A DNA stretch of 27,385 bases, taken from a virus. The stretch covers positions 1 to 27,385 of IMG/VR virus record IMGVR_UViG_3300042503_001820. One strand, 5' to 3'. Within the stretch, counting starts at the first letter, position 1. Each line of letters starts with the position of its first letter. Under the pieces are notes generated by a model, which made no database searches, had not been told where the DNA came from, and saw only the letters and a list, made by a program, of their open reading frames with translations. Below, in pieces: positions 3,947 to 27,385 of this stretch. Made by a program: the position numbers and the translations under genes.

Positions 3947-4775
3947 CTCAAATGCGTTGGTTCCCCAGGTAATCGACATTACCCCGGAAATGTTTTTGTT
4001 AGCCAAGGGCGAAGGCAATCGGCTGGATGACAAGGGGAAGGAAAACGCCATCCGCCAGATTTGCACGACCTTGAAGCTAAACCCGGCCGGCGTGCCCGTT
4101 CAGTTTTTGAACCTGAAAGGCAAGCTGGTGCCCTACCTGACCAGGGGGGCAACGGACCAGATTCGCCACCGGGCCGGCATTTCCACCGAAATCCTGGAAA
4201 GGTCCATCCAGCAAGGCGTCTACCTGGTGCGGGTGAAAGTCACTTTGCCAGATGGGCGGGTGGATGAGTCTACCGGGGCTGTTCATATCGAGGGGCTGAA
4301 GGGCGAGGACCTTGCCAACGCCTTCTTGAAGGCGGAGACAAAGGCGAAGCGGCGGGCAACCTTGAGCGCCGTGGGCCTGGGGATCATGGACGAAAGTGAA
4401 ATCCCCCAGGACGCCGAGCGCCTTCCGCCGCCTGTCCTGTCGAAGCAACCGGAGCCGGTCAAGGTGGCCCCCCGGCCCATGGTCAAGAAGGCCGAGCCGG
4501 CCCCGGTGGTGAGCGCCCCGGCGGTGAAGGCCCCGGAGCCCAACCAGGCGGCGAAGGCCCCGGAGATTCCGGACGGTGATGACCCGTTTGTCGGGGACGC
4601 CGCCCCGGTCCTGGCATCCAAGGACCAGTTGGCGCAGATCAAGGCGCTTGCCCCTCCTGGGGACTGGATCAAGCAGATGTTGGCCAGGCTGGGCCGGAAG
4701 TCTGGCAGCGAAATGACCTTCGACGAAGCGGATGACGTTTTGGCCTCACTCAAGGCGGAAAGGGGAATCGAGTAA
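3939..4775 (+). CDS. Phage recombination protein, candidate single-strand annealing protein
   Basis: 278 residues. ATG 3939 overlaps the csrA stop and has GGAGG and AAGGAA just upstream. Residues 1-155 carry a conserved-looking core: ITPEMFLLAKGEGNR, LVPYLTRGATDQIRHRAGIS, a GRVDESTGAVHIEGLKGEDL block and AETKAKRRATLSAVGLGIMD. I recognise this core (ATDQxR..., LANAxxKAETKAKRRxTLS) from phage proteins placed in recombination modules and suspected to be Rad52-like or RecT-like annealing proteins. Residues 165-235 are a Pro/Ala/Lys linker, and the C-terminus (DEADDVLASLK) is helical. Gp157 and DUF669 proteins follow, supporting a DNA recombination role. Substrate and mechanism are inferred. Confidence 0.6.
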   Translation: MVSSNALVPQVIDITPEMFLLAKGEGNRLDDKGKENAIRQICTTLKLNPAGVPVQFLNLKGKLVPYLTRGATDQIRHRAGISTEILERSIQQGVYLVRVKVTLPDGRVDESTGAVHIEGLKGEDLANAFLKAETKAKRRATLSAVGLGIMDESEIPQDAERLPPPVLSKQPEPVKVAPRPMVKKAEPAPVVSAPAVKAPEPNQAAKAPEIPDGDDPFVGDAAPVLASKDQLAQIKALAPPGDWIKQMLARLGRKSGSEMTFDEADDVLASLKAERGIE

Positions 4776-5311
4776 TGGCGACCATCTTTGAGATCACCCG
4801 TGAGATTCAACGCATTCAAGATGCCCTAGAAAGGGGCGTAGATGCGCGCCTAACGGACGATCCGGACAACGGGCCCGATGCGGCAGACCAGGCGCTAGAC
4901 CAGCTCATCCAGGAGGAATTATCCACCCGGGAAGCCCTGGAAGCGAAGCTGGATGGGTACTGTGATTTGATTTCCCATTACCAGGCCTTGGCGGGTCACG
5001 CCGGGAGCGAAGCCAGCCGCCTGGCCCTGCTGAAGCGGTCCTATGAGGCCCAGACTCAGCGCCTCATCCAAAACCTGCTGTACGTCTTCCAGGCCCTGGG
5101 CCTTCAGAAGGTGGACACCGGGTTACACCGGGTGAGCGTTATGAAAAAGGTCAAGTCGGTGGAGGTGGATGAGTTCACCGACATTCCCCAGGAGTTTTTG
5201 CGGGTCCATACCGAGCCCGACAAAACGGCCATTCGTGCGGCCCTGGACTCCGGGCGGGAACTGCCCTTTGCCCGCTGGGCACCGGAGGGGCAGCGCCTTT
5301 CCATCAAGTGA
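4775..5311 (+). CDS. Gp157-family phage protein
   Basis: 178 residues; ATG shares its A with the previous stop (TAATG). The layout matches the Siphovirus Gp157 family: an acidic helical N-terminus, a long coiled coil over about residues 45-115 (LEAKLDGYCDLISHYQ ... SYEAQTQRLIQNLLYVFQAL), then a beta-rich C-terminal part with KVDTGLHRVSVMKK, SVEVDEFTDIPQEFLRV and PDKTAIRAALDSGRELPFA. Members are common beside phage recombination and SSB genes, and the streptococcal founder was linked to phage resistance; the biochemical function is unsettled. Translational coupling to the annealing-protein gene supports membership in a recombination module. Confidence 0.85.
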   Translation: MATIFEITREIQRIQDALERGVDARLTDDPDNGPDAADQALDQLIQEELSTREALEAKLDGYCDLISHYQALAGHAGSEASRLALLKRSYEAQTQRLIQNLLYVFQALGLQKVDTGLHRVSVMKKVKSVEVDEFTDIPQEFLRVHTEPDKTAIRAALDSGRELPFARWAPEGQRLSIK

Positions 5312-5398
5312 ATGCGTTGGGCGGCCTGGTGGCTTTTCCCTGGTCCGATTCCAGGGCGCTCAAATCCCCACTTCGGGGAATCATGGAGGAGTGTTCAA

Positions 5399-5818
5399 AT
5401 GAAAATGCTTTTTGATACGGACGGGGCCCCGCCACCTGAAAAGAAGACCTACGGTCTTTTGCCGGCCGGGGAATACCTGGTGAAGGTCATTTCCGAACAA
5501 CAGAAAACCTTTGAGGGCGGGAAAGAGGTTGTCACCCTTACCCTGGAAGTCCAAGACGGTGAATACCGTGGCCGGCGCATCTGGGATGACTTCCGGGTAA
5601 AAGGTTATTCGCCTGTAGCCCACCAGATTTCCAAAACCCGCTGGGAATCCCTGGAACAGGCCACCGGGCCCCTGGGCGACAGTTCGGACGCCATCGGGCA
5701 CCTGGCATACGTCCAGGTGCGGCACGAGGAATACAACGGCAAAAAAAACGTCCGGGCCGAAGGCTATCGCCAGGCGGAAACCGCTAGCGATGCGGTCGAT
5801 GATCCGCTGCCATTCTGA
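5399..5818 (+). CDS. DUF669 family, SSB-like DNA-binding protein
   Basis: 139 residues. ATG 5399 with GGAGGA 8 bases upstream; the longer frame from 5312 lacks a site. The core reads YGLLPAGEYLVKVISEQQK, VTLTLEVQDGEYRGRRIWD, then a helix and a strand AYVQVRHEEYNGKKNVRAEG, the DUF669 pattern. The last residues, DAVDDPLPF, form an acidic tip ending in a hydrophobic pair, as in bacterial SSB where this tip (DDDIPF) recruits partner enzymes. It probably coats single-stranded DNA during replication and recombination together with the upstream annealing protein. A terminator follows 13 bases after the stop. Confidence 0.85.
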   Translation: MKMLFDTDGAPPPEKKTYGLLPAGEYLVKVISEQQKTFEGGKEVVTLTLEVQDGEYRGRRIWDDFRVKGYSPVAHQISKTRWESLEQATGPLGDSSDAIGHLAYVQVRHEEYNGKKNVRAEGYRQAETASDAVDDPLPF

Positions 5819-5831
5819 ACCCAGGCAACAC

Positions 5832-5862
5832 AAGGCCCCGGCCTTTCGGCCGGGGCCTTTTT
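5832..5862 (+). terminator. Rho-independent terminator
   Basis: Perfect 12-bp stem AAGGCCCCGGCC / GGCCGGGGCCTT with tetraloop TTTC and a TTT tail, between the DUF669 gene and the next early gene. Probably a partial terminator splitting the early operon. Confidence 0.85.
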
Positions 5863-5881
5863 CTTACAGGAGGTAACCACG

Positions 5882-6238
5882 ATGAGCCTTTACGGAAAGC
5901 TGTACAAGATTCGCCCTGAGTTCGCCAATGACCGCCGCTTGGCCACCATGCGGAAAACCCTGCGAGACGTTTACAAGGCCCGCAACCTGCCCGGGCCTCC
6001 CCTGGGAATGCCTTCCAAGGGCCTTGTCATGGACGCCCTGGCCCACATTTTGGGTTGGGTGGCCCAACGCCCCAGGGACCTGGAAGCCGTCAGCGTAGCC
6101 AGCAAAATCGATCGCCTGGTGGGCCTGGACGGATTCGCTTTCGCAATGTCCCAGGCGGATCTAATGACCGTCTTCCCCGGCTACGTCCGCTTTGACCTGA
6201 CGATTGCTGAACCCGTCACGGAGGACCAAAACCAATGA
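5882..6238 (+). CDS. Hypothetical early protein
   Basis: 118 residues; ATG 5882 preceded by AGGAGGTAAC, one of the best ribosome-binding sites in the window. Basic N-terminal half (KLYKIRPEFANDRRLATMRKTL) and a helical middle ending FPGYVRFDLTIAEP. No family recognised. Its stop overlaps the next ATG by four bases (ATGA), so it is translationally coupled to the gene carrying the inverted repeat array; if that array is a replication origin this could be a helper of initiation, which is speculative. Confidence 0.75.
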   Translation: MSLYGKLYKIRPEFANDRRLATMRKTLRDVYKARNLPGPPLGMPSKGLVMDALAHILGWVAQRPRDLEAVSVASKIDRLVGLDGFAFAMSQADLMTVFPGYVRFDLTIAEPVTEDQNQ

Positions 6239-7362
6239 GCTACGAACTAACCGAACCTGAATGGTTCCAAAGGGATATGGCCGAAGCGCCATGGCCTACG
6301 GACATTACAAATTTTGAATCTGCCGATATTGACCTTGACAGGTTTCAGGGGGGTGCCGCTAAAATCCGAGCCAGAGGCGAGGCAACGGAGACTGCCGCTG
6401 AAAGCGGTTCCGCAGATGGCTGTTGTTCGGGCCCTGGTTTTGGTTCTGGTTCGGGCCCTGGTTTTGGTTCTGGCCCACGTTATGGTTTTGGTATTTGCGA
6501 AGCTAAAGCCCTGGTTTTGAATCTCAGGCCTTCCAACCCTCTGTTACCTTCTACCTCAGTCAGCACCAGTCAACAGACAGGGGAGACAGTAGACAGACAG
6601 TTAACTATCTCTACTGTCAGTTCAGGCGAAACGGACGGCGGGGCCAGCATGGCCCCTGACGGCGGGGGCAGCCTGGCGGCGGGGCCTGTTTTTGGGCGGA
6701 TAGTTGCCGGCCTGGGGGGCAATGTTCCAGCGGGGCGGGACGGTTTTTTAGAAGACAAAACCAGGGCTTTTGCTTCGCAAGTAATAAGAACCAAACGTGG
6801 GCCAGGACAAAACCAGGGCCCGGAAAAAAGCCAAAACCAGGGCCAGGACAGAAGGCAAAACCAGGGCAAGAGCCTGGGGGATGAAATCACCTATGGGGCT
6901 GATGTAGACGTTCCCGGCATCCTGGCATCGAGAATCTTCCTGGACGCCTTTGACGGGCATTGGCTCCGCCACCACGTCCACCTATGGCGCTCCGGGGTAT
7001 TGCGTTCGGAACAGCGGGCCCCGTGGCCCAGGTTTGTGGGCGGGCTCCTGGAAAAGATCGCCCGGGTATTCATGGACCCGAACCCCTGCGGTGGGTGGAT
7101 GTTGGCCAGGGCCAGCGGGCGGCTGTTCTGGTATCCGAACCATTTCAAGCTGGCGCATTACTTCCGGGAGCGGGCGGCCAGGCGCTTCAACTTCCCCTGG
7201 GAAACCGCCAAGATGGAAGCCAAAACGGAGTACCGCCAGGAGTGGGGCGAACTCATTACCTGGACGGAATACGAGATGTTCAAATCGGCCGGTTCGGATT
7301 GGCAGCGTGCCTGGGACATGATCCGGGATATGCGTAGAAATAATTTCCGCAAAGGCTCTTGA
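6235..7362 (+). CDS. Unknown protein with origin-like repeats in its middle; candidate replication initiator
   Basis: 375 residues, ATG overlapping the previous stop. Three zones: an acidic N-terminus (1-40, with EPEWFQRDMAEAPWP), a low-complexity middle (about 45-215) made of Gly/Ser/Phe, Ser/Thr and Gln/Asn/Gly runs dictated by DNA repeats, and a well-formed C-terminal domain (about 220-375) rich in Trp/Arg with FVGGLLEKIARVFMDPNPCGG, RLFWYPNHFKLAHYF and WDMIRDMRRNNF. Codons in the first two zones are less G/C-ending than in the C-terminal zone. The arrangement recalls lambda O, whose interdomain linker is encoded by the origin iterons. No initiator family is recognised, so the role is a hypothesis; the alternative is an unknown gene invaded in frame by a palindromic element. 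Confidence 0.6.
   Translation: MSYELTEPEWFQRDMAEAPWPTDITNFESADIDLDRFQGGAAKIRARGEATETAAESGSADGCCSGPGFGSGSGPGFGSGPRYGFGICEAKALVLNLRPSNPLLPSTSVSTSQQTGETVDRQLTISTVSSGETDGGASMAPDGGGSLAAGPVFGRIVAGLGGNVPAGRDGFLEDKTRAFASQVIRTKRGPGQNQGPEKSQNQGQDRRQNQGKSLGDEITYGADVDVPGILASRIFLDAFDGHWLRHHVHLWRSGVLRSEQRAPWPRFVGGLLEKIARVFMDPNPCGGWMLARASGRLFWYPNHFKLAHYFRERAARRFNFPWETAKMEAKTEYRQEWGELITWTEYEMFKSAGSDWQRAWDMIRDMRRNNFRKGS
6432..6519 (+). repeat. Left arm of inverted iteron array
   Basis: CCCTGGTTTTG at 6432, 6456 and 6509, with a degenerate copy (TTATGGTTTTG) at 6480; spacings 24, 24 and 29 bp. Also contains GGCCCACGTT and TTGCGAAGC, both found inverted in the right arm. Confidence 0.9.
6585..6618. repeat. Central inverted repeat between iteron arms
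   Basis: GACAGTAG (6585-6592) pairs with CTACTGTC (6611-6618) across 18 bases that include GTTAAC. The surrounding stretch also has repeated ACAGACAG and is one of the more AT-rich parts of the array's interior. Confidence 0.6.
6756..6866 (-). repeat. Right arm of inverted iteron array
   Basis: CAAAACCAGGG (reverse complement of the left word) at 6756, 6808, 6832 and 6856, with a degenerate copy near 6784; spacings 28, 24, 24 and 24 bp. Its inner part matches the left arm inverted over about 65 bases with few differences, including AACGTGGGCC and GCTTCGCAA. Confidence 0.9.
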
Positions 7363-7484
7363 AGTTTCTCAAGGTCTTTGCAAAATAGCAGCGTGGGCAG
7401 CAGTACGCTCGCCCTTTCGGCAAGACGCCACCCGGCCCCCCCAGGCCACTTCTCCCGGTTTCTACCGGGCCCGGGCGTCTTCCA

Positions 7485-8219
7485 ATGGATTGGAAATCAC
7501 TTCATCAAAGCCATTACAGCACCAAGCCCAAAACGTGGGATAGCCACTATTCCACCTGGGAAAGTCTTTTCCTTTTCGATGGTTTCAAGGACGCCGATGT
7601 TCTGGAAGCCATGGAAGAAATGGTCAAGGTTGTTCCAGGCCCGGCCATCCCGGACGGGCACTTTGAATGGTTGCAAAAGTTCCTGGTATCCGCCCGGGAT
7701 AACTTGCGCCGGAAGCATGAGGCCAAGCGCCTCCAGGAGCGGGCCCAGCGTGATTGCCAGGATTGCCGGGGCGTTGGCATCGTCTGCGGCCTCCCCGACC
7801 CGGAATGCTGCAAGCATGGGCAATGGGAGCCCCGGCCCACCTGGGTGGATTACACGACGATTTCAGCCTATTGCTCATGCCCTCATGGGCTGAACCGGCA
7901 CGCCGCTGTATTGCGATGGTTCCAGGAACACCGCAGGGATTGCGGGGAACCGCTGAACCTCCTTCAGTACGAACGCCTGGTGCCGGATTGGCGGCAGCAA
8001 CTCAAAGCTAGGGCGGACAAGGTCCAGGCTGAACGCTCGTTAAGGAACCTGCCAGCGCCGGGAGGACGCAAGGCGACTCGGGGGGGTAAGCCGGGGACGC
8101 CTCCCGGTGCTGGCAAGCCATCTGAATGGGTGGCAATCGAGGCCCCTGCGGACGAACCCCAGCCGGGCGAAGGCGCGCCGATCCCCGCCCCACAGTTCAT
8201 CCGGAGGCGTGCCAAGTGA
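7485..8219 (+). CDS. Cys-rich, probably zinc-binding phage protein
   Basis: 244 residues from ATG 7485; the upstream site is weak and a later start cannot be excluded. Residues 1-85 are mostly helical and acidic (ADVLEAMEEMVKVV). A Cys/His cluster at about 86-135 reads CQDCRGVGIVCG, PECCKHG and YCSCPHG, enough ligands for two zinc sites and partly like a DnaJ zinc ribbon. A helical part (HAAVLRWFQEHRRDC...) and a disordered Pro/Gly/Arg tail follow. It sits right after the candidate initiator gene, so a loader or helper role is possible but unsupported by motifs. The stop overlaps the GTG start of the HNH gene. The gap 7363-7484 shows nothing clear. Confidence 0.7.
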   Translation: MDWKSLHQSHYSTKPKTWDSHYSTWESLFLFDGFKDADVLEAMEEMVKVVPGPAIPDGHFEWLQKFLVSARDNLRRKHEAKRLQERAQRDCQDCRGVGIVCGLPDPECCKHGQWEPRPTWVDYTTISAYCSCPHGLNRHAAVLRWFQEHRRDCGEPLNLLQYERLVPDWRQQLKARADKVQAERSLRNLPAPGGRKATRGGKPGTPPGAGKPSEWVAIEAPADEPQPGEGAPIPAPQFIRRRAK

Positions 8220-9043
8220 TCCAGCGCACGATATTCGATTACCTGCCCCCTGAAGGCGGTAATAAGCCGCCCAGGAAGGACCGCAAGAGGTTGGGGCTTT
8301 GTAGGGACTGCGCCGCACCCGCCAGGCCTGGCAAAACCTATTGCCAGGACTGTGCCAAAAAGGCGGCCAAACTTTTGGCGGCAAGGGCAAGCACCCTCAA
8401 GGCCCAGGGCCTTTGCACAAAATGCACCGCCCCGGCCAGCCCCGGCAAAACCAGGTGCAATGCGTGCGCTGAAATGGGGGCCAAGTCTGCTGCGGCAAGG
8501 ACAAGCGCCCTCAAGGCTCAAGGCCTTTGCAAACAATGCGGTAAATGCCCGCTTGCTGAATCGAGTGGCTTCTACTGTGACAGTTGCTTGAAACCTGTGC
8601 GGGAACGGATAGCCGCCAAGCGGAAGACCGATTTCGGGAAATGGGAAAACAGCGTGAGGGCCAGAACTCCCCAAACCGCCAAGGGCATTCAGCTCACGGC
8701 TCCGACTTGCTTTGACTGGACCCACGAAGACTTCCGGGTCTGCTTCGTTGAATACCCGGCCGGCCCGAAAAACGTCATTGACCACAAGATCCCTTTGGCT
8801 TGCGCCGAACTCCCAGGCGGCAAGGTGGATAAGGCCTTTGGCCGCATCTGCGCCGACCTGCCAAACCTTCAGCTACTAACCCAAAGGGGCAACAGCAAAA
8901 AAGGCAGAAACCTGGACGAGGTTATTGCCGCCAGGAGCGATCAGCTACGGGCTGAAGGCCTGGCCGGGGCTGCCCTCTTTCGCCGCCTCTGGGATGAGTT
9001 TTCCGAGCAGGCCGAGGTCTACGCCGACATAGGGGACGAATGA
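8216..9043 (+). CDS. HNH endonuclease with three tandem zinc-ribbon repeats
   Basis: 275 residues. I choose GTG 8216, which overlaps the previous stop (GTGA) and has GGAGG 9 bases upstream; no ATG fits. Residues about 25-125 hold three repeats of about 38 residues, each with a GLCxxC ... CxxC pattern (GLCRDCAAPARPGKTYCQDC and its copies), also visible as a 114-bp DNA repeat. The C-terminal half is the nuclease: VIDHKIPLACAELPGG followed by LPNLQLLTQRGNSKKG, the HNH core with its terminal Asn/His-like box. Probably a DNA nicking or cutting enzyme, possibly mobile. It is not next to the terminase, so a packaging role is less likely. Confidence 0.85.
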   Translation: MIQRTIFDYLPPEGGNKPPRKDRKRLGLCRDCAAPARPGKTYCQDCAKKAAKLLAARASTLKAQGLCTKCTAPASPGKTRCNACAEMGAKSAAARTSALKAQGLCKQCGKCPLAESSGFYCDSCLKPVRERIAAKRKTDFGKWENSVRARTPQTAKGIQLTAPTCFDWTHEDFRVCFVEYPAGPKNVIDHKIPLACAELPGGKVDKAFGRICADLPNLQLLTQRGNSKKGRNLDEVIAARSDQLRAEGLAGAALFRRLWDEFSEQAEVYADIGDE

Positions 9044-10897: not shown

Positions 10898-11866
10898 ATG
10901 CACGAGATCGACGAAACGGGCGGCATCGCACGGGTGGCTTTCGCCAGGGAACCCGCCTGGCATGGCCTGGGCAAGGTGGTGCCCGATTCGATGACGGTAG
11001 AGGAAGCCATCGAGGCGGCCGGCCTCGATTGGGAAGTCGAGCTACAACCCATCTACGCCGGCAGGGAAGGCGAGGAGCCCCGGCCCATCCCTGGCAAGCG
11101 GGCAATCGTCCGGGAAGACTCCCAGGCGGTTACCGGCATCGTCTCCACCGGCTGGCAGCCTGTTCAAAACCGTGGCCTGGGGAAGTTCATTGAAAGTGTT
11201 TGCGGGGAAGGGGCCCGCCTGGAAGCCGCCGGCTCACTCCGGGGCGGCAAACGGATTTGGTTTCTCCTGGACCTCAAGCGGACCTATGAGCCCATCAAAG
11301 GCGATCCCGTAAACAGCTACCTGGTTTTCGCCAATGGCCACGATGGGGTTACACGCCTCCGGGGCCTGGCGACTGACACCAGGGTTGTTTGCGCCAACAC
11401 CTGGGCAATCGCCCTGGAAGGGGCCAACGAGGCCAAGGGCATTTCCTTCCGCCACGATGGCACCATTGGCAACTACGTTGCAAAGGCCCAAGAGTACATC
11501 GGCAAACTGTTCCAGACCGCTGACAAGCGCCAGGAGCAATCCAAGGCCCTGGCCAAAATGGTCAAAATGAAGGATGAGGAGTTGGCGGCGTTCTTTATCC
11601 GGCAACTCAAGCGGGTTCAAATCCGAGAGGAAAAAGAACTTAAAAGCGCCCTGGAAGTCATTGCCACTTTCCAAAACGCCAAGACTAACACAATAGGCGG
11701 CATGGAGGGCACCGGCTGGGCAGCGTTTCAAACCTGGTCCGAGTTCCTGGACTACCGCCCTTCCAAAAGGAACGCCCAAGCATCCCGCTGGGAATCCAAC
11801 CTCTTCGGGGAATACTCCAGGTCCAAAACCAACGCCTGGAACGACCTGCTAGCACTAGCTAAGTGA
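10898..11866 (+). CDS. DUF932 phage/plasmid-like protein
   Basis: 322 residues. I choose ATG 10898; a GTG at 10889 overlapping the previous stop would add three residues. The N-terminus HEIDETGGIARVAFAREPAWHGLGKVVPD is the DUF932 signature, followed by YAGREG, IVSTGWQPVQNRGLGKFIESV, FLLDLKR, SYLVFANGHDGVTRLRGLATDTRVVCANTWAIAL, and a C-terminal helical part ending KTNAWNDLLALAK. These proteins are widespread in phages and plasmids and highly expressed in some; their function is not established. It ends the early/middle region, with a strong terminator 15 bases downstream. Confidence 0.92.
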   Translation: MHEIDETGGIARVAFAREPAWHGLGKVVPDSMTVEEAIEAAGLDWEVELQPIYAGREGEEPRPIPGKRAIVREDSQAVTGIVSTGWQPVQNRGLGKFIESVCGEGARLEAAGSLRGGKRIWFLLDLKRTYEPIKGDPVNSYLVFANGHDGVTRLRGLATDTRVVCANTWAIALEGANEAKGISFRHDGTIGNYVAKAQEYIGKLFQTADKRQEQSKALAKMVKMKDEELAAFFIRQLKRVQIREEKELKSALEVIATFQNAKTNTIGGMEGTGWAAFQTWSEFLDYRPSKRNAQASRWESNLFGEYSRSKTNAWNDLLALAK

Positions 11867-11881
11867 TAAACCGCCCGCATT

Positions 11882-11920
11882 AAAAAAAAGGCCCTGGGCT
11901 ATGTCTCAGGGCCTTTTTTA
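11882..11920. terminator. Strong, possibly bidirectional terminator
   Basis: A-run plus stem AAGGCCCTG / CAGGGCCTT with loop of about 12 bases, followed by TTTTTTA. The A-run on one side and T-run on the other would allow termination from both directions. It separates the early/middle genes from the late genes. Confidence 0.85.
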
Positions 11921-11954
11921 TTCCTGGTGCCAAATACATTTATGGGGGGTTAGC

Positions 11955-12143
11955 GTGCGCCGTTGTTGTGAAAAGTGCAAATACGCCCAAGTGAACGGCC
12001 GGCGGCGTCTTTGTTTCTACTGCCGCAAACCCGCCATGGATGAGAAGCGCCGCATTCAGGCCAAAGTGGCCCGTGGGGTTTGCATCGTCCACAAGTGTGT
12101 TTTCAAGGCGATGCCAGGGCATAAGAGGTGCCTAAAGCATTAG
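11955..12143 (+). CDS. Small Cys-rich zinc-ribbon protein
   Basis: 62 residues from GTG 11955 with GGGGGTTAGC upstream; the frame can be opened to 11901 but that would lie over the terminator. Cys pattern: CCEKC ... CFYC in the first half and GVCIVHKC ... GHKRC in the second. The spacing resembles two units of the zinc-ribbon repeats in the HNH protein at 8216-9043 (GLCxxC...CxxC), so it may be a detached repeat protein. Basic overall (many Arg/Lys), so nucleic-acid binding is plausible. First gene after the terminator, before the late operon. Confidence 0.6.
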   Translation: MRRCCEKCKYAQVNGRRRLCFYCRKPAMDEKRRIQAKVARGVCIVHKCVFKAMPGHKRCLKH

Positions 12144-12165
12144 CGGTTAACGTGCGGGGGCGTTC

Positions 12166-12951
12166 ATGGTCCTTGGGTTATTGCTGGCGCTTTTTTCCCA
12201 ACGGGTGGAGTTACCGCCTGAAATCCATGCAACGCCGGGGCAGTTCGTCACCGTGCGCCCCACCCTGGTGGATGGCGGCGGGGTGGAATACTACCCGCTG
12301 GATCCGGGGCTATCGGTTTTCCCGTCCAGCCTGCTGACCGATAAAAGCGCGCTGGTCTTCACCGTCTACCTTCCAGGCCGATACCGGGTCCTGGCGTACA
12401 CCGCCAAGGCGGACAAGCCCAGCCCGCCAGCAATCACGACCGTGGTGGTTGGGATCGGACCAGGGCCAAGCCCCAACCCAGGGCCAGGGCCTGGGCCCAT
12501 GCCAGGGCCAGGGCCAGGACCAGGGCCGGACGTTCGACCGGACAAGCCCAAGCCGCCAGCGCCCCCAGCGCCACCGGCACCGCCAGCGCCCCCGGCGGAC
12601 ATTACCCAGGACCCGCTTTATTCGGTCTTTGAATCTATTGCCGGCGGCCTTCAGGAAGCCAACCAAAAACAAAGCCTAACCCAGTACGGCAACGCCTGGA
12701 CAAAGGCGGGCCCCCAGGTGGATGGGAAAACCCTGGGCCAATGGAATAGCGCCGTCAAAAAGGCCGCCGCCGATGAGGGGCTAGGCCTGGGCGCTATTTC
12801 CGCCATCCGGGAGCGGGTGGGCGTGGAAGTCTCCACCGTGGTGGGCACCGATCCCGCCATGGCCCTGGCCGGTGAGAAGGGCGCAGCGGCAAAAGACCTG
12901 GGCGTTAGGTTTGGGCGGATCTTCCTGAAACTGGCTGAGGGCGCACGATGA
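12166..12951 (+). CDS. Secreted protein with Ig-like domain and Pro/Gly linker
   Basis: 261 residues; ATG 12166 follows a G-rich stretch. Short hydrophobic N-terminus (MVLGLLLALFSQRVEL) works as a signal peptide or anchor. Residues 15-95 look like an Ig/beta-sandwich domain (PEIHATPGQFVTVRPTLVDG ... LPGRYRVLAYTAKADK). Residues 98-148 are a Pro/Gly then Pro/Ala repeat linker. The C-terminal domain (150-261) is helical (YSVFESIAGGLQEANQKQSL, GLGAISAIRERVGVEV). I recall such proteins from planctomycetes and their phages. Its stop overlaps the start of the cysteine peptidase, so the two are made together. Probably acts in or outside the envelope. Confidence 0.7.
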   Translation: MVLGLLLALFSQRVELPPEIHATPGQFVTVRPTLVDGGGVEYYPLDPGLSVFPSSLLTDKSALVFTVYLPGRYRVLAYTAKADKPSPPAITTVVVGIGPGPSPNPGPGPGPMPGPGPGPGPDVRPDKPKPPAPPAPPAPPAPPADITQDPLYSVFESIAGGLQEANQKQSLTQYGNAWTKAGPQVDGKTLGQWNSAVKKAAADEGLGLGAISAIRERVGVEVSTVVGTDPAMALAGEKGAAAKDLGVRFGRIFLKLAEGAR

Positions 12952-13859
12952 GCGAAGACATTGAAAACAATATGCCCGAGGGTTTGAACAACGGCGGCGG
13001 GTGGCACTACGACCCGGAAGCCGTGGCCGCCATCCAATCCACCCTACCCCAGCCCGTATGGGGCGGGACGCCGGCCGCCTCACTCAAGGACTATCCCCAG
13101 GAAATCTTCGGCTGGCGCTTGTGGAAGGAAGCCACCGGCACCGAATGGCCGGTATTAAACCAGGGCCAGGTGGGTAGCTGCTGCTCTTTTGGGGCCTCGC
13201 ACGCCGTCATGTATAGCCAGGCGGCCGAGTCTTGCATGGGGGACATGGAAACCCCCCTGGTGCCCTGCATGGAGTTCATCTACGGCATTAGCCGTGTTCA
13301 AATCGGCGGCGGTCAACTGGGCCGGGACGATGGCTCTTTGGGCGTTTGGGTGGCCAAGGCCGTGCGTGATTATGGCATCCTGGAACAAGCGGTCCATGGT
13401 TCCTATGATTGCCGGAAGTACGACCAGAACCGATGCCGGGACTGGGGGGCCAATGGCCCGCCCCAGGAACTCATAAGCCAGGCCCGGGACAACAAGGTTG
13501 GGGCCATCACTCAAATGCGGTCTTTTGAGGATTGCGTGCAAGCCCTGGCCCAGGGCTATGGGGTAAATCTGTGCAGCCAGCAGGGCTTTTCCTCCCAGCG
13601 TGATTCCCAGGGCTTCGCCAAGCCGTCAGGCCGGTGGGCCCACTCGATGGCGGCGATTGCCTACCGCCTGGACCGCCCCGGGTTGTTCATTTGCAATAGC
13701 TGGGGAACCGGATACTTCAGCGGCGGCAAGTACCCCGACGATATGCCCCTCCAGGGGTTTTGGGCCGATAAGAACGTGATCGAATCCATGCTGGATTGTG
13801 GCGACTCTTGGAGCCACTCCAACGTGGACGGTTTCCCCTTGAAACAGTTGTCATGGTGA
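12948..13859 (+). CDS. Papain-like (C1A) cysteine peptidase
   Basis: 303 residues; ATG overlaps the previous stop by four bases. Catalytic layout of the papain family: NQGQVGSCCSFGASHAV supplies the oxyanion Gln and the nucleophile Cys (first Cys of the CC pair, where papain has Cys-Trp); GRWAHSMAAIAYRLDRPG supplies the His; FICNSWGTGYFSGG supplies Asn-Ser-Trp-Gly. The aligned domain covers roughly residues 65-290 without a propeptide or signal peptide. Usual phage lysins are peptidoglycan enzymes, so a C1A peptidase may serve lysis or entry through a protein-rich envelope, virion maturation, or cleavage of host factors. Coupling to the secreted Pro/Gly protein suggests an envelope-directed pair. 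Confidence 0.88.
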   Translation: MSEDIENNMPEGLNNGGGWHYDPEAVAAIQSTLPQPVWGGTPAASLKDYPQEIFGWRLWKEATGTEWPVLNQGQVGSCCSFGASHAVMYSQAAESCMGDMETPLVPCMEFIYGISRVQIGGGQLGRDDGSLGVWVAKAVRDYGILEQAVHGSYDCRKYDQNRCRDWGANGPPQELISQARDNKVGAITQMRSFEDCVQALAQGYGVNLCSQQGFSSQRDSQGFAKPSGRWAHSMAAIAYRLDRPGLFICNSWGTGYFSGGKYPDDMPLQGFWADKNVIESMLDCGDSWSHSNVDGFPLKQLSW

Positions 13860-22350: not shown

Positions 22351-22608
22351 ATGGCAAAGAAAGCGGCGGCACCCAAACCGGAACAAACCAGGCCCGAGGT
22401 TAAGCCGGACCTGGTGGTTGGGAGTGGCGGCAGACTGTTCAAGGTTGGGTTACCTACCCCAGCCGTCACCTACATCATTTCAGCGCCTTCCCAGGCGGAA
22501 GCGGTGGAGGGGTACAAGCGCCTGGCGGGCGTGATCATGTCCAGCCAGGAGTTTGAAGTGTTTGAACATATCGAAGCCGAGCCGGAAGCCGAGGCCGACC
22601 AGGGGTGA
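22351..22608 (+). CDS. Hypothetical small protein
   Basis: 85 residues; ATG 22351 chosen because GTGGAGG lies 9 bases upstream; ATG 22345 and GTG 22336 are in-frame alternatives. Lys/Ala/Pro-rich N-terminus, then a compact domain (GGRLFKVGLPTPAVTYIISAPSQAEAVEGYKRLAG) and an acidic end. Follows the capsid gene, where small head or head-tail proteins often sit, but no family is recognised. A terminator comes 24 bases later. Confidence 0.65.
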   Translation: MAKKAAAPKPEQTRPEVKPDLVVGSGGRLFKVGLPTPAVTYIISAPSQAEAVEGYKRLAGVIMSSQEFEVFEHIEAEPEAEADQG

Positions 22609-22632
22609 GCCGGCCAGGCTAGGTGACATTTG

Positions 22633-22667
22633 CCCCGCCCACGGTCTACCCGTTGGCGGGGTTTTTT
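22633..22667 (+). terminator. Rho-independent terminator after the capsid operon
   Basis: Stem CCCCGCCCACGG / CCGTTGGCGGGG with loop TCTAC, then TTTTTT. One internal C/T mismatch. It ends the head-gene operon just before the giant gene. Confidence 0.85.
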
Positions 22668-22687
22668 CTTTCCAGGATGGGTGGAAT

Positions 22688-25600
22688 ATGACCAGCAAAA
22701 ACCATGTTGAGATGGCACGGGCGGCATTACGGCGGGTCCTGGAGCAGACCGCCGAGAAGGATGATCCCAACGGCCGTTGGGTCACCCTGGACAATGGCGT
22801 CCATGTTTTCATCAACAAGGCTGGTGACATTTCCAAGGGCCCGGCTGAACTCACCGGCAAGAATTTGAACAACCTGGACAGCGGCAAGAAATCCGCCCAG
22901 GGGGGCCCATCCACCCCGCCGGCTGTTCGCCCCGAGACTCCGCCCGAGCCGGCGAAGCGCAACGCCTACCAGGAGGGGCCCGAGGCCGACCAGGAGAAGA
23001 TCAACCAGGCCCGGGAATTCCTCCGGTCCAAGGGCTTCCACGTTCCGGACGCCCCCGTCAACCCGTCCAAGGCCAACGCCAGGGAAACCGCCGCCCCCCG
23101 CATCACCTATATGGACCCGAACAAGATTCTGGCCCAGGCCCGGGTGAAGCAGTTCAAAGCGGGCGCAGATGAGGCGACCGGCGAAGTGGAGCCCCTGGAG
23201 GGCCATTACGACCACCGGGGGAGCGGGCCCCTTCAAATCTGGGAAGGCAAAGATGGGACGATGGAGGTTATTTCCGGACGCCACCGCCTGGCCCATGCCA
23301 AGCGCAACGGCGTGGGGGAAGTGCCCGTCCAGGTTTACCGGGAGGCCGATGGGTTCAGCCTGGAACAGGCCAAGGCCCTGGATGCCGAACTGAACATCAG
23401 AGACGGAAACGGTAGCGTGGCCGACTACGCCAGCTACTTCCAATCGAACAAGGGCCTGACCAAGGACCAGGCCCAGATGAAAGGGCTCCTGGCCAGGGCC
23501 AAGGGCAAGGACGGTTGGGACATTGCCCAGGGGGCGACCGAAACCCTTCTGGCCGCCCTCAAGGGGAAGGCGATCAACGACAAACAGGCGGCAGCCATTG
23601 CCCGCCATGCCCCGAACGACGAAAAGCTCCAGCCCCTGGGATTGAAGCTGGCCGGGGAAAACAAGTCCGCCGAAACCATCGGGGATTACCTTCAGGCGTA
23701 CAAGGCGTTGAGCGCCAGGCGCAAGGCGGACCAGGATCAAGGCGAACTGTTCGGCAACGATGACAGCGCCATCAAGGAGATGGCCGAAAACGCCAGCAAG
23801 GCCGGCGGCATCCGCCGGGCCCTGGCCGCCAGGATCACCGCCGCCCAGGGGGCAGCCAAGCGCCCCGACATTGCCCGGGAAATGGGCATCAATGTGGACG
23901 ATCCCGAGGCGGTCAAGAGTGAGGTTTCCCGACTCCAGGGCGAAGTGGAGCGGTGGAAAAACTGGGCCGTTCATCCCGACCTGGTGGCGCAGATATTCGG
24001 CAAGGATCCGAATGAGGGCCAGCTTGTTCAAATGCCGGACGCCCCGCCCGAGGGGCGCACGGTGCCCGAGCCCCTGCGGTCCCAGGAGGAAATGGACGCC
24101 GACCTGGAAAAGACCTTCAGCGACAAGGGCAATGACCAGACTCCTTCCATGTTTGGGTTTGACGACCCGGCACCCGCACCGGAGCCGGAAAAGGCGGCAC
24201 CGGCCGACCAAAGGGGCCTGGATGACGTTGAAGGCGTGGGGCGTAAGCTCGATTCCGCCGAGTTGAATAACGGGCCCGCCTTCAGCCAGGTGGACCGCAC
24301 CGAGGCCGAGGGCACCGGGGCCACCCCGGCACCGCCCCCGGGCCTGGACCTGTTCGGCAACCCGGTGAAAAAGAACTTTGCCGGCCCCGAGATGATGACG
24401 GACCTGTTCGGCAATAAGGTTGCCGTGGACGCCGAAAAGCAGGCCCCCCAGGAGACGGTATCCGACCAGGCGGCGAAAGGTTTGGACTGGCTGGACCAGA
24501 AACAGCAGGCCAAAACGGACGGCACCGGGGAAATGTTCGGCAGCCTGTTCTCTCCTGGCAACCTGCCGGTCCCGAAGGATGAAGCGCCCGCAGCGCCGCC
24601 AGCCCTGGACGATAGCGGCAGCGTGGTGGATGACGCCTTGGGAATGTCCAAAAACTCCGGGCCCCAATTCCAGGGCGACCCGGCCCAGGCCAAGGAAATG
24701 GCGCTCAGGGCCCTCAAGGACCATAAGGGCTGGATGACCAAGAAGGACTTGGACGCCATCGTTGGCGGGGAGGCGCGCCGATCCCTGGAAGATGAGGGCC
24801 TCTTGAAGGTCCGCATGGACACCGAGGGGAATCACTTCGTGGCCCTGAAGGGGGCCAGGAACAAAGATGGGCTGATGGACGCCGACACCCTGGACGGGTT
24901 CCAGGAAGTTGGCTTGGGTGAGCATGAGCTTGCCCCGGAGAATGAGGCGGCGCTTGCGGCTGCAAACAAGGGCGTGGAGAAGGTGGAGGCGAAGGCGGCC
25001 AAAAAGTTCGCCAACCCCGATTACAAACCGCCCCGTGGTTTCAAGGTTCCGGCCAACCAAAAGGAACACGACGAACGCATTAACAAGGCCGTTGAGGAAT
25101 ACGGCAAACATATCGACGGATTGAAAAAGATCCTCAACGCCCAAAGCACCCTGCCCCAGAAGGATGCAAACGGCGTGTTCAAATTGACCGACCCGGAAAC
25201 CGGGAAGGAAATGGACTTCGGCCGAAACGAGCAGTTCGCCAAAAAGCGGGCTAGCGACTACCTCAAGAGCCGGGCTCAAATCGCCAAGGCCAGGGCAGCC
25301 AAGGCGCATGGTGAGGTTCGGGCCCTGGATGAATTCCGGAACGCCCATGAAGGCGATCCGTACCAGGCGGAAAAACCCAAGCGGGAGCCTAGCGAATCCC
25401 TGCGGGACGGGCGCACCCAGGGCCAGGGGGAAGACCTGGCGCAACAACCCCAGGCCAGCGCCCCGGGGCAGCCCAAGGCCGGCACCTGGCAACCGTCCAA
25501 GGAAATCCCCGAGTTCCACCAGGCGACCGGGTATAAGTTCTGGTCGATGGGTGGCCTCACGCCCGAGGAAAAACAACAGGAAGCCGAATTCCAGGCCTAC

Positions 25601-27385
25601 GCCAGGGATAACTATGAGGACTTGCGGCACAAGTATTTGCAGAAAAAGGGCGCTTTTGATGCGAATGGAAAGCTGACGCACGCCAATTTGAATATCGACG
25701 ATTGGCGGGATTTCATGCCGGGGTATACCGGCCTGAATCAGCACGTCAACCACACCGCCGCCAACTACCTCAACGCCCGCTTGCTGCACGAACTCAAGCA
25801 CGAACTCAAGGGCGTGGGTAACGGCAAAATGGCCATCATGGCCGGCGGCGGCGGCTCCGGGAAAACCACCGCCGTTTCCAAACAAATGCAGATGACCGAT
25901 TACCCGCTCATTCTGGACCAGGTGAGCGCCGAATGGGATGGGCCATACGGGGCGAAAGCCGCCATGGACCAGGCCCGCCAGGCCGGTTTTGAACCCGAAT
26001 TCCACTTCGTGGACCGTCACCCCTGGGACGCCTGGGAAAAGGGCATTGTGCCCCGTTTCCTGGAAGGGGCGAAGGAGTACAAGGCCTGGGAAGACGGCGG
26101 CAAGCAGGGCCCCGAGCCCGAGAAGGGCCGGCCCGTCGATTTGAATTACGCCATGGATGCGAACATAAAGGCCAGGAAAGCCGCACTAGAGGCGGCAAAA
26201 GAGATGGCCGCATCCGGTAAGCCGATAACGGTTTACAACAACAATTTAGGAAAAGGTCTTGCAAAAGACATTCAAGACCCGAAAGAACAGATAGAATACC
26301 TTGGAAGCCAGGTTCACGACCCGGAAGAACTGAAAAAGAGGGCTAAAAATGGAATCCTCGATCTATACCGATCCGGCCAAATTTCCCGTGACCACGCAGC
26401 CGGGCTTATCGGCGGATCGCCAGATGAGGTTGGACAGCTTCAACCTGGATCAACTGGAGGAGGCGCTACGGGGCCAGGAGCCGATGAACGACCGGCAGCG
26501 GCAAGCCCTGGTGGAACTGCGCCAGAAAGCCCAAATGTGGCCCAGGCTGTCGGAGGAAATCAAGAAGGCCCAAGCGCCCCGCCAGTAATCGCCCCGGAAG
26601 CCCCCGGGAAAAGGGCCAAGCGCCCCAGCCTGACCAAGGCGGGGCGTCAGTCAATCGAAGACGAGATCGGCCGCCTATCCTCTGTTTTGGCCGGTATGCC
26701 GAAGAATTCCCGGGACTATAACCGGATTCGGCTGCAACTCTGGAACACCCGTAAAAAACTTGCGAATCTGCCGGCCAGCGGGGCGGGGGAACAGGCTTCC
26801 TCCGCACCGCCCGCCCCCGTTCCGTTGGCGGCAGAACCTACGCCGGCACCAGCGCCCCAGGCGGAAGTGCCCCAGGCGGCAAGCACGGGTAAACCCGCCT
26901 TCCCGACTGTCAGCAAGTCCGGCACGGTCCGAACGCCCCTGGCCGCCCGGGAATGGGAAAAGGGTTTGAAAACTGGCCGTTTTGAACTCACGCCCCCGGA
27001 GAAAATGGGCCAGGACGATTACCTGGACGGCGGCGAGACGCCAAATTTCCGGATGTTACGCATGGCCATGCGGGAAACTCCCCCAGGCGAATTGGGCGGC
27101 GAAGACAAGCTGCCATCTGGGGCCAGGGTGAACCAGTACGGCGGGCTCTTGGCCAAGGTGATCACCGGCAAGGGCGCTAACGCCAGGTTCAACCACAACA
27201 AGGCCGCCGAGTTGCATGACGAGTTGTACAACACGGCCGGGGCCATGGACCCGACCATTGCCGAACACGCCCAAAAGCGCCTGGATTGGTTGCGGGAACT
27301 GGCGGCGTCAGACCACCAGCTAGGCGGGGCAAGCCGCAAGGCTATCCAGGTGACTCCTGAGAATGCGGAGAAAATCCGGGCCCGC
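22688..27385 (+). CDS. Giant polyvalent protein (ParB-like, zeta-toxin-like P-loop), partial
   Basis: An unbroken frame of 1566 codons from ATG 22688 to the right edge. Order: N-terminal RWVTLDNGVHVFINKAGDI (residues 35-55); a ParB/DdrB-like part at about 150-230 with VISGRHRLAHAKRNGVGEV, then long helices to about 440; an acidic linker with five LFG-type motifs (355, 488, 554, 572, 615); a winged-helix-like stretch near 670-715 (WMTKKDLDAIVGGEARRSL); coiled-coil regions; a zeta-toxin-like kinase at about 1030-1245 with AGGGGSGKTTAV (Walker A Lys 1059), LDQVSAEWDG and ITVYNNNLGKG; then a Pro/Ala linker and further helices. This multi-domain style matches phage polyvalent proteins thought to be injected with the DNA. 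Functions are inferred per domain. Confidence 0.85.
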   Translation, partial: MTSKNHVEMARAALRRVLEQTAEKDDPNGRWVTLDNGVHVFINKAGDISKGPAELTGKNLNNLDSGKKSAQGGPSTPPAVRPETPPEPAKRNAYQEGPEADQEKINQAREFLRSKGFHVPDAPVNPSKANARETAAPRITYMDPNKILAQARVKQFKAGADEATGEVEPLEGHYDHRGSGPLQIWEGKDGTMEVISGRHRLAHAKRNGVGEVPVQVYREADGFSLEQAKALDAELNIRDGNGSVADYASYFQSNKGLTKDQAQMKGLLARAKGKDGWDIAQGATETLLAALKGKAINDKQAAAIARHAPNDEKLQPLGLKLAGENKSAETIGDYLQAYKALSARRKADQDQGELFGNDDSAIKEMAENASKAGGIRRALAARITAAQGAAKRPDIAREMGINVDDPEAVKSEVSRLQGEVERWKNWAVHPDLVAQIFGKDPNEGQLVQMPDAPPEGRTVPEPLRSQEEMDADLEKTFSDKGNDQTPSMFGFDDPAPAPEPEKAAPADQRGLDDVEGVGRKLDSAELNNGPAFSQVDRTEAEGTGATPAPPPGLDLFGNPVKKNFAGPEMMTDLFGNKVAVDAEKQAPQETVSDQAAKGLDWLDQKQQAKTDGTGEMFGSLFSPGNLPVPKDEAPAAPPALDDSGSVVDDALGMSKNSGPQFQGDPAQAKEMALRALKDHKGWMTKKDLDAIVGGEARRSLEDEGLLKVRMDTEGNHFVALKGARNKDGLMDADTLDGFQEVGLGEHELAPENEAALAAANKGVEKVEAKAAKKFANPDYKPPRGFKVPANQKEHDERINKAVEEYGKHIDGLKKILNAQSTLPQKDANGVFKLTDPETGKEMDFGRNEQFAKKRASDYLKSRAQIAKARAAKAHGEVRALDEFRNAHEGDPYQAEKPKREPSESLRDGRTQGQGEDLAQQPQASAPGQPKAGTWQPSKEIPEFHQATGYKFWSMGGLTPEEKQQEAEFQAYARDNYEDLRHKYLQKKGAFDANGKLTHANLNIDDWRDFMPGYTGLNQHVNHTAANYLNARLLHELKHELKGVGNGKMAIMAGGGGSGKTTAVSKQMQMTDYPLILDQVSAEWDGPYGAKAAMDQARQAGFEPEFHFVDRHPWDAWEKGIVPRFLEGAKEYKAWEDGGKQGPEPEKGRPVDLNYAMDANIKARKAALEAAKEMAASGKPITVYNNNLGKGLAKDIQDPKEQIEYLGSQVHDPEELKKRAKNGILDLYRSGQISRDHAAGLIGGSPDEVGQLQPGSTGGGATGPGADERPAAASPGGTAPESPNVAQAVGGNQEGPSAPPVIAPEAPGKRAKRPSLTKAGRQSIEDEIGRLSSVLAGMPKNSRDYNRIRLQLWNTRKKLANLPASGAGEQASSAPPAPVPLAAEPTPAPAPQAEVPQAASTGKPAFPTVSKSGTVRTPLAAREWEKGLKTGRFELTPPEKMGQDDYLDGGETPNFRMLRMAMRETPPGELGGEDKLPSGARVNQYGGLLAKVITGKGANARFNHNKAAELHDELYNTAGAMDPTIAEHAQKRLDWLRELAASDHQLGGASRKAIQVTPENAEKIRAR
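26349..26588 (+). CDS. Possible overlapping gene inside the giant gene (+1 frame)
   Basis: 79 codons from ATG 26349, preceded by AGAGGG, to TAA 26588, in the +1 frame of the giant gene. Its codons end mostly in G or C, as in real genes of this window, while the giant frame over the same bases uses many A/T-ending codons and reads as a Gly/Pro/Ala linker. The product looks like a helical protein (SFNLDQLEEALRG, DRQRQALVELRQKAQMW, LSEEIKKA). Either a small overlapping gene or the trace of a former separate gene now bridged by the giant frame. Confidence 0.45.
   Translation: MESSIYTDPAKFPVTTQPGLSADRQMRLDSFNLDQLEEALRGQEPMNDRQRQALVELRQKAQMWPRLSEEIKKAQAPRQ

Follow-up and report, generated by a model that had tools for sequence, protein, structure and literature searches.

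In lambda and the Shiga toxin (Stx) phages, the iterons of the replication origin lie within gene O (PMC7466680), and oriL of phage SPP1 lies within gene 38 (PMC6316719). In the origins of phage-inducible chromosomal islands and Staphylococcus aureus pathogenicity islands (PICIs/SaPIs), a region that is thought to undergo melting is flanked by two iteron sets; the PICI origin is located 3′ of the rep gene, and its initiator is of the Rep helicase type (PMC6092414). Here we describe an array of inverted iterons in a 27,385-base IMG/VR virus record (IMGVR_UViG_3300042503_001820; the whole stretch is referred to as the window, with position 1 as its first letter). The array lies inside a 375-codon gene on the + strand (6235 to 7362) and, judging from its sequence and its setting, is probably a phage replication origin situated within the coding sequence for its own initiator.

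The array resembles the lambda and Stx phage origins in that its iterons occupy the middle of a candidate initiator gene, where they code for the stretch between the two ends of the protein, and in its early operon position (PMC7466680). As expected of a lambda-O-like origin, there is a cluster of near-identical iterons within the gene, namely seven 12-mers (6431 to 6867). Lambda has four iterons and the Stx phages have six, located beside an AT-rich tract (PMC7466680), whereas here two mirror-image sets are present and the AT bias is weak. Unlike lambda O, the 375-amino-acid (aa) protein has no O-family match and only ∼66 residues ahead of the array. The initial annotation of this DNA had proposed a lambda-O-like origin, and the proposal is supported as a way of working, with in-gene iterons in an initiator slot like that of a relative described below, but not as a family assignment, given the lack of family similarity, of an N-terminal winged-helix domain before the array, and of a single iteron orientation (three copies on the + strand and four on the − strand). 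SPP1 oriL offers a second likeness, initiator-bound repeats inside the initiator’s own gene with an adjoining unwinding element (PMC6316719), although the searches made here revealed no known initiator resembling the 375-aa protein. The presence of two iteron sets is shared with the PICI and SaPI origins, but in the window both sets lie within the gene, the 375-aa protein matched no helicase family in Pfam or PHROGs, and the center between the sets is low in stability rather than AT-rich.

Seven 12-bp iterons on two mirrored arms

The repeat unit of the array is the 12-mer GCCCTGGTTTTG, which is present in seven exact copies, three on the + strand (starting at 6431, 6455, and 6508) and four on the − strand (starting at 6756, 6808, 6832, and 6856). 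All seven are inside the 375-codon gene, and the window contains no other exact copy. Correspondingly, CCCTGGTTTTG occurs at 6432, 6456, and 6509 on the + strand and its reverse complement at 6756, 6808, 6832, and 6856. The iterons are 100% identical to each other, whereas the 12 bp on either side have mean pairwise identities of 36% and 33%; because the flanks are near random and the copies identical, conservation ends sharply at the edges of the 12-mer. Consecutive starts in the left arm are 24 and then 53 bp apart, with a degenerate unit (GTTATGGTTTTG, three mismatches; 6479 to 6490, + strand) in between. In the right arm they are 52, 24, and 24 bp apart, and the longer step again spans a degenerate unit (approximately 6784 to 6796, − strand), which mirrors the left one in the alignment of the arms. 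The irregular step is therefore mirrored as well, and the regular 24-bp spacing that was initially described applies to several units but not to all.

The two arms align as a gapped inverted repeat of ∼103 bp, in which the left arm (6417 to 6519, + strand) matches the reverse complement of the right arm (6756 to 6857, − strand) in 86 of 104 columns, the others being 15 mismatches and 3 gap columns; an earlier estimate of ∼65 bp was too short. The inverted repeat scores 110, compared to a mean of 23.2 (standard deviation, 3.1; maximum, 40) for 200 synonymous-codon shuffles that leave the protein unchanged, and the runner-up among 1.14 Mb of fetched loci has a score of 42. The inverted iteron array reported in the initial annotation is thus real, and an artifact of assembly or amplification is unlikely because the arms are diverged copies, differing in 18/104 columns. 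The differences are distributed unevenly, with changes in 0/36 columns of the three paired iterons and in 18/68 of the other columns (Fisher p 0.0002). A second element, CTGGCCCACGTT, is present in only two copies in the window, one in each arm (6470 to 6481, + strand; 6794 to 6805, − strand), and the motif GCGAAGC (6497 and 6772) is also kept in both arms.

The 12-mer is read in four frame and strand contexts. On the + strand, iterons 1 (6431 to 6442) and 2 (6455 to 6466) are read as GPGFG and iteron 3 (6508 to 6519) is read as ALVL; of the copies on the − strand, iteron 4 (6756 to 6767) is read as DKTRA and iterons 5 (6808 to 6819), 6 (6832 to 6843), and 7 (6856 to 6867) are read as QNQG. 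Iteron 7 extends past the right arm and has no left iteron partner, yet is fully conserved. Moreover, the G+C content at third codon positions (GC3) is 0.29 in the left arm (measured over 6415 to 6519), compared to 0.66 to 0.79 in the other phage genes measured. Given the different peptides encoded by a single 12-mer and the low GC3 of the left arm, the conserved entity is the DNA and not the protein, and selection at the protein level cannot explain the 12-mer. The 375-codon frame is nonetheless wholly open across the array, an outcome seen in 1.4% of first-order Markov sequences of the region; on this ground, the gene is probably translated through the array while the DNA sequence is under a constraint of its own.

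Between the arms, the nearest-neighbor profile reveals a low-stability stretch (6515 to 6620) that is a candidate unwinding element. Only four loci in the 27 kb are less stable than the 100-bp segment at 6515, and the 50-bp segment at 6572 is at the 99.4th percentile. This stretch includes the smaller central inverted repeat noticed at the outset, which is present as GACAGTAGA-N16-TCTACTGTC (6585 to 6618, with GACAGTAGA at 6585 to 6593 and TCTACTGTC at 6610 to 6618), and a small perfect inverted repeat, GGGGCCA-GCA-TGGCCCC, is found at 6640 to 6656.

Operon slot and relatives

The source virus is, on its gene content, a temperate tailed phage, because it carries a tyrosine integrase, an early operon (Gp157, DUF669, and RusA), and a terminase and portal module. 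The gene order around the array is Gp157, DUF669, 118-aa gene, 375-aa gene, and 244-aa gene, with RusA farther downstream. All five genes are on the + strand. The Siphovirus Gp157 gene (4775 to 5311; PF05565, E 1.6e-29) is followed by a DUF669/single-stranded-DNA-binding-like gene (5312 to 5818; PF05037, E 3.1e-11; phrog_378, E 6.4e-11). The 118-aa gene (5882 to 6238) weakly matches phrog_2509, “replication initiation protein” (E 0.007), and shares 4 bp (ATGA) with the start of the 375-aa gene. The 244-aa gene downstream (7485 to 8219) encodes a CxxC/CxC protein.

The in-gene origin reading draws mainly on a relative, contig G004/L104, that was found by portal search (portal 51% identical) and whose corresponding slot holds a recognized initiator with iterons inside its gene. 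Its gene order is RecT, Gp157, 276-aa initiator, 253-aa protein, and DUF669. The 276-aa protein matches a replication initiation protein family (phrog_9474, E 4.7e-19) and a replisome organizer family (phrog_13246, E 3e-8), and the middle of its gene (11834 to 12664) contains six direct CCTAGTC iterons at 12-bp steps and no inverted copy. In a single comparison, the 253-aa protein is 23% identical to the 244-aa protein of the window over 188 residues (E 3e-7), which places the L104 initiator and the array gene alike after Gp157 and before the gene for the 244-aa protein or its homolog. The 375-aa gene, an open frame in the slot equivalent to that of the L104 initiator, is accordingly regarded as a candidate initiator gene. 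The two differ in that the L104 iterons are all direct and the L104 protein has an N-terminal domain matching known initiators and is unlike the 375-aa protein. Judged from sequence, then, operon slot and in-gene array agree between the two phages, and the protein does not.

In-gene iterons in the initiator genes of other Gp157 phages also favor this reading. In-gene repeat arrays were identified in six more open reading frames (ORFs) (in L017, L054, L065, L071, L090, and L092), all of which match O-like, initiator, or DnaD-like families; two other ORFs tested alongside do not, one having no family (L026) and one being tail-fiber-like (L068). The six, from loci fetched via Gp157, had been selected visually because they seemed likely to be initiators, and they represent a chosen sample rather than a rate. 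In the scan of Gp157 loci, the window alone has sizeable iteron sets in both orientations within a gene; L090 has one inverted iteron copy, and the counts for L040 stem from a nearly self-complementary word. Mirrored iterons (TATAGGGAT family) surround an AT-rich stretch in L041 (2207 to 2481), but these are intergenic, upstream of a 710-aa ORF that appears primase-helicase-like by eye, making L041 the second Gp157 phage with a candidate two-sided origin. In Pseudomonas phage Pavpe01 (L014), a repeat-rich stretch at ∼1800 to 2300 contains CTGGTTCTGG seven times, has no annotated genes, and is near helicase and exonuclease genes; it is possibly an origin.

The in-gene origin reading and its alternatives

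If the array is an origin, an early protein encoded by the 375-codon gene, perhaps with the overlapping 118-aa protein, would bind the 12-bp iterons on both arms, and two head-to-head complexes would destabilize the stretch between them (∼6515 to 6620). A helicase would be loaded there, possibly one per strand, and replication would start both ways, with the low-complexity residues encoded by the array serving only as a linker. The step from iteron binding to melting of the adjoining DNA is modeled on lambda (PMC7466680) and SPP1 (PMC6316719), and the pairing of complexes head to head, with helicases loaded in both directions, is suggested by the mirrored layout. A more specific version, which we put forward tentatively, is that the gene represents an unrecognized initiator family with a symmetrical in-gene origin, where head-to-head complexes load a pair of helicases and an mRNA stem formed by the arms could couple initiator synthesis to origin activity.

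Several observations weigh against an in-gene origin. The DNA between the arms is not strongly AT-rich (49% AT at 6520 to 6640; best 50 bp, 56%), and the GC-skew check that had been proposed gave no inflection at 6.4 to 6.9 kb. The array is known from one sequence only. The 375-aa protein has no family match in Pfam, PHROG, or NCBIfam, no homologs in phages, plasmids, or viral contigs, and no detectable similarity to the L104 initiator, and none of the solved structures in the PDB matches its C-terminal 163 residues. Because the array begins after only ∼66 residues, there is no room for an N-terminal winged-helix domain of the lambda O type. Lastly, seven of the eight transition-type differences between the arms give G-U on the + strand and one gives A-C (one-sided p 0.035), as an mRNA stem would. 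The structure models, built from the single sequence, are of too low a quality for any domain to be placed, with mean predicted local distance difference test scores of 35 (whole protein) and 43 (C-terminal part), and structure prediction of the C-terminal part, as had been recommended, was thus of no use. The sole genome-contig match to the protein, in Streptococcus suis (L007), was rejected as chance (48 residues at 35%); read directly, the DNA of the match region belongs to an unrelated housekeeping gene in a different frame.

The main rival is that the arms act as RNA, either as a ∼96-bp mRNA stem in the reading frame that controls the translation or decay of the 375-codon gene or as another structured RNA, with the 12-mer as a by-product. 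The G-U bias would fit such a stem, as would an RNA folding energy for 6415 to 6870 that is 12.9 standard deviations below shuffles. However, DNA folding yields a similar z-score, so that the energy merely restates the inverted repeat, and strand-biased C-to-T change would yield G-U as well. Pairing would also leave the pattern of conservation unexplained: conservation is perfect in the iteron columns but not in the rest of the stem (p 0.0002), direct copies in the same arm still share the 12-mer but no longer the spacers, and iteron 7 is intact despite lying almost wholly outside the paired arms. As there is also no Rfam match at gathering thresholds, we consider an RNA role unlikely.

A cluster of binding sites for some other phage or host protein, such as an operator, partition, or packaging site, is likewise improbable. 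A sharp 12-bp conserved block is the signature of protein binding and does not itself name the protein. The array is, however, in the middle of a gene in the replication operon, with the terminase (∼15.8 kb) and the integrase (1.3 to 2.6 kb) both far away, no sigma-70-like promoter was found at 5800 to 7600, and comparable arrays in related phages sit within initiator genes. The in-frame palindromic mobile element raised in the initial annotation (resembling miniature inverted-repeat transposable elements or Rickettsia palindromes) would account for the presence within a gene of long inverted arms whose codon composition is unusual but is very improbable, as there is no second copy in the window, the inner arm pattern is absent from 2.9 million viral contigs (host genomes were not scanned), and the arms are diverged except at the iterons. 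The matches to the array in phage and plasmid DNA were rejected as short, simple-repeat-like, and confined to one arm, and the single match to a two-iteron pattern in viral contigs (L009) was rejected because the 12-bp repeat there is Gly/Pro-rich coding sequence of an unrelated protein.

Genomic context and implications

The tyrosine integrase gene is on the − strand (1341 to 2612). Four IMG/VR contigs from other metagenomes (L004, L005, L006, and L096) encode a portal and/or terminase 100% identical to those of the window phage; no match to the array gene was found in them. From general gene content, our guess is that the host is Planctomycetota-like. Three further regions of the window stood out. 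In a 305-aa protein (8126 to 9043), what appear to be three tandem zinc-ribbon-like CxxC repeats precede a stretch that is HNH-like as judged by eye, and the Pfam DZR match of this protein (E 0.008) did not pass the cut-off. A 303-aa protein (12948 to 13859) without a PHROG match resembles a papain-like cysteine protease by eye and is oddly placed between the early and structural phage genes. At 22601 to 26400, one + strand frame is entirely stop-free and heads toward the end of the window, where the ORF list gives a 1,097-aa ORF on the − strand; of the two, the + strand frame is probably genuine (a tape measure or tail gene), with the − strand ORF as its shadow.

The array presents a clear case of selection at the DNA level overriding protein sequence, in that one 12-mer is kept in four reading contexts. 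Known in-gene origins (lambda, SPP1, and relatives) use direct repeats, usually in one orientation, and mirrored arms would be a new variation on this layout, providing a compact natural test of how iteron geometry relates to the direction and number of helicases loaded. Here, DNA sites and operon slot together pointed to a candidate initiator that protein libraries do not recognize, and other missing phage initiators may be traceable in the same way.
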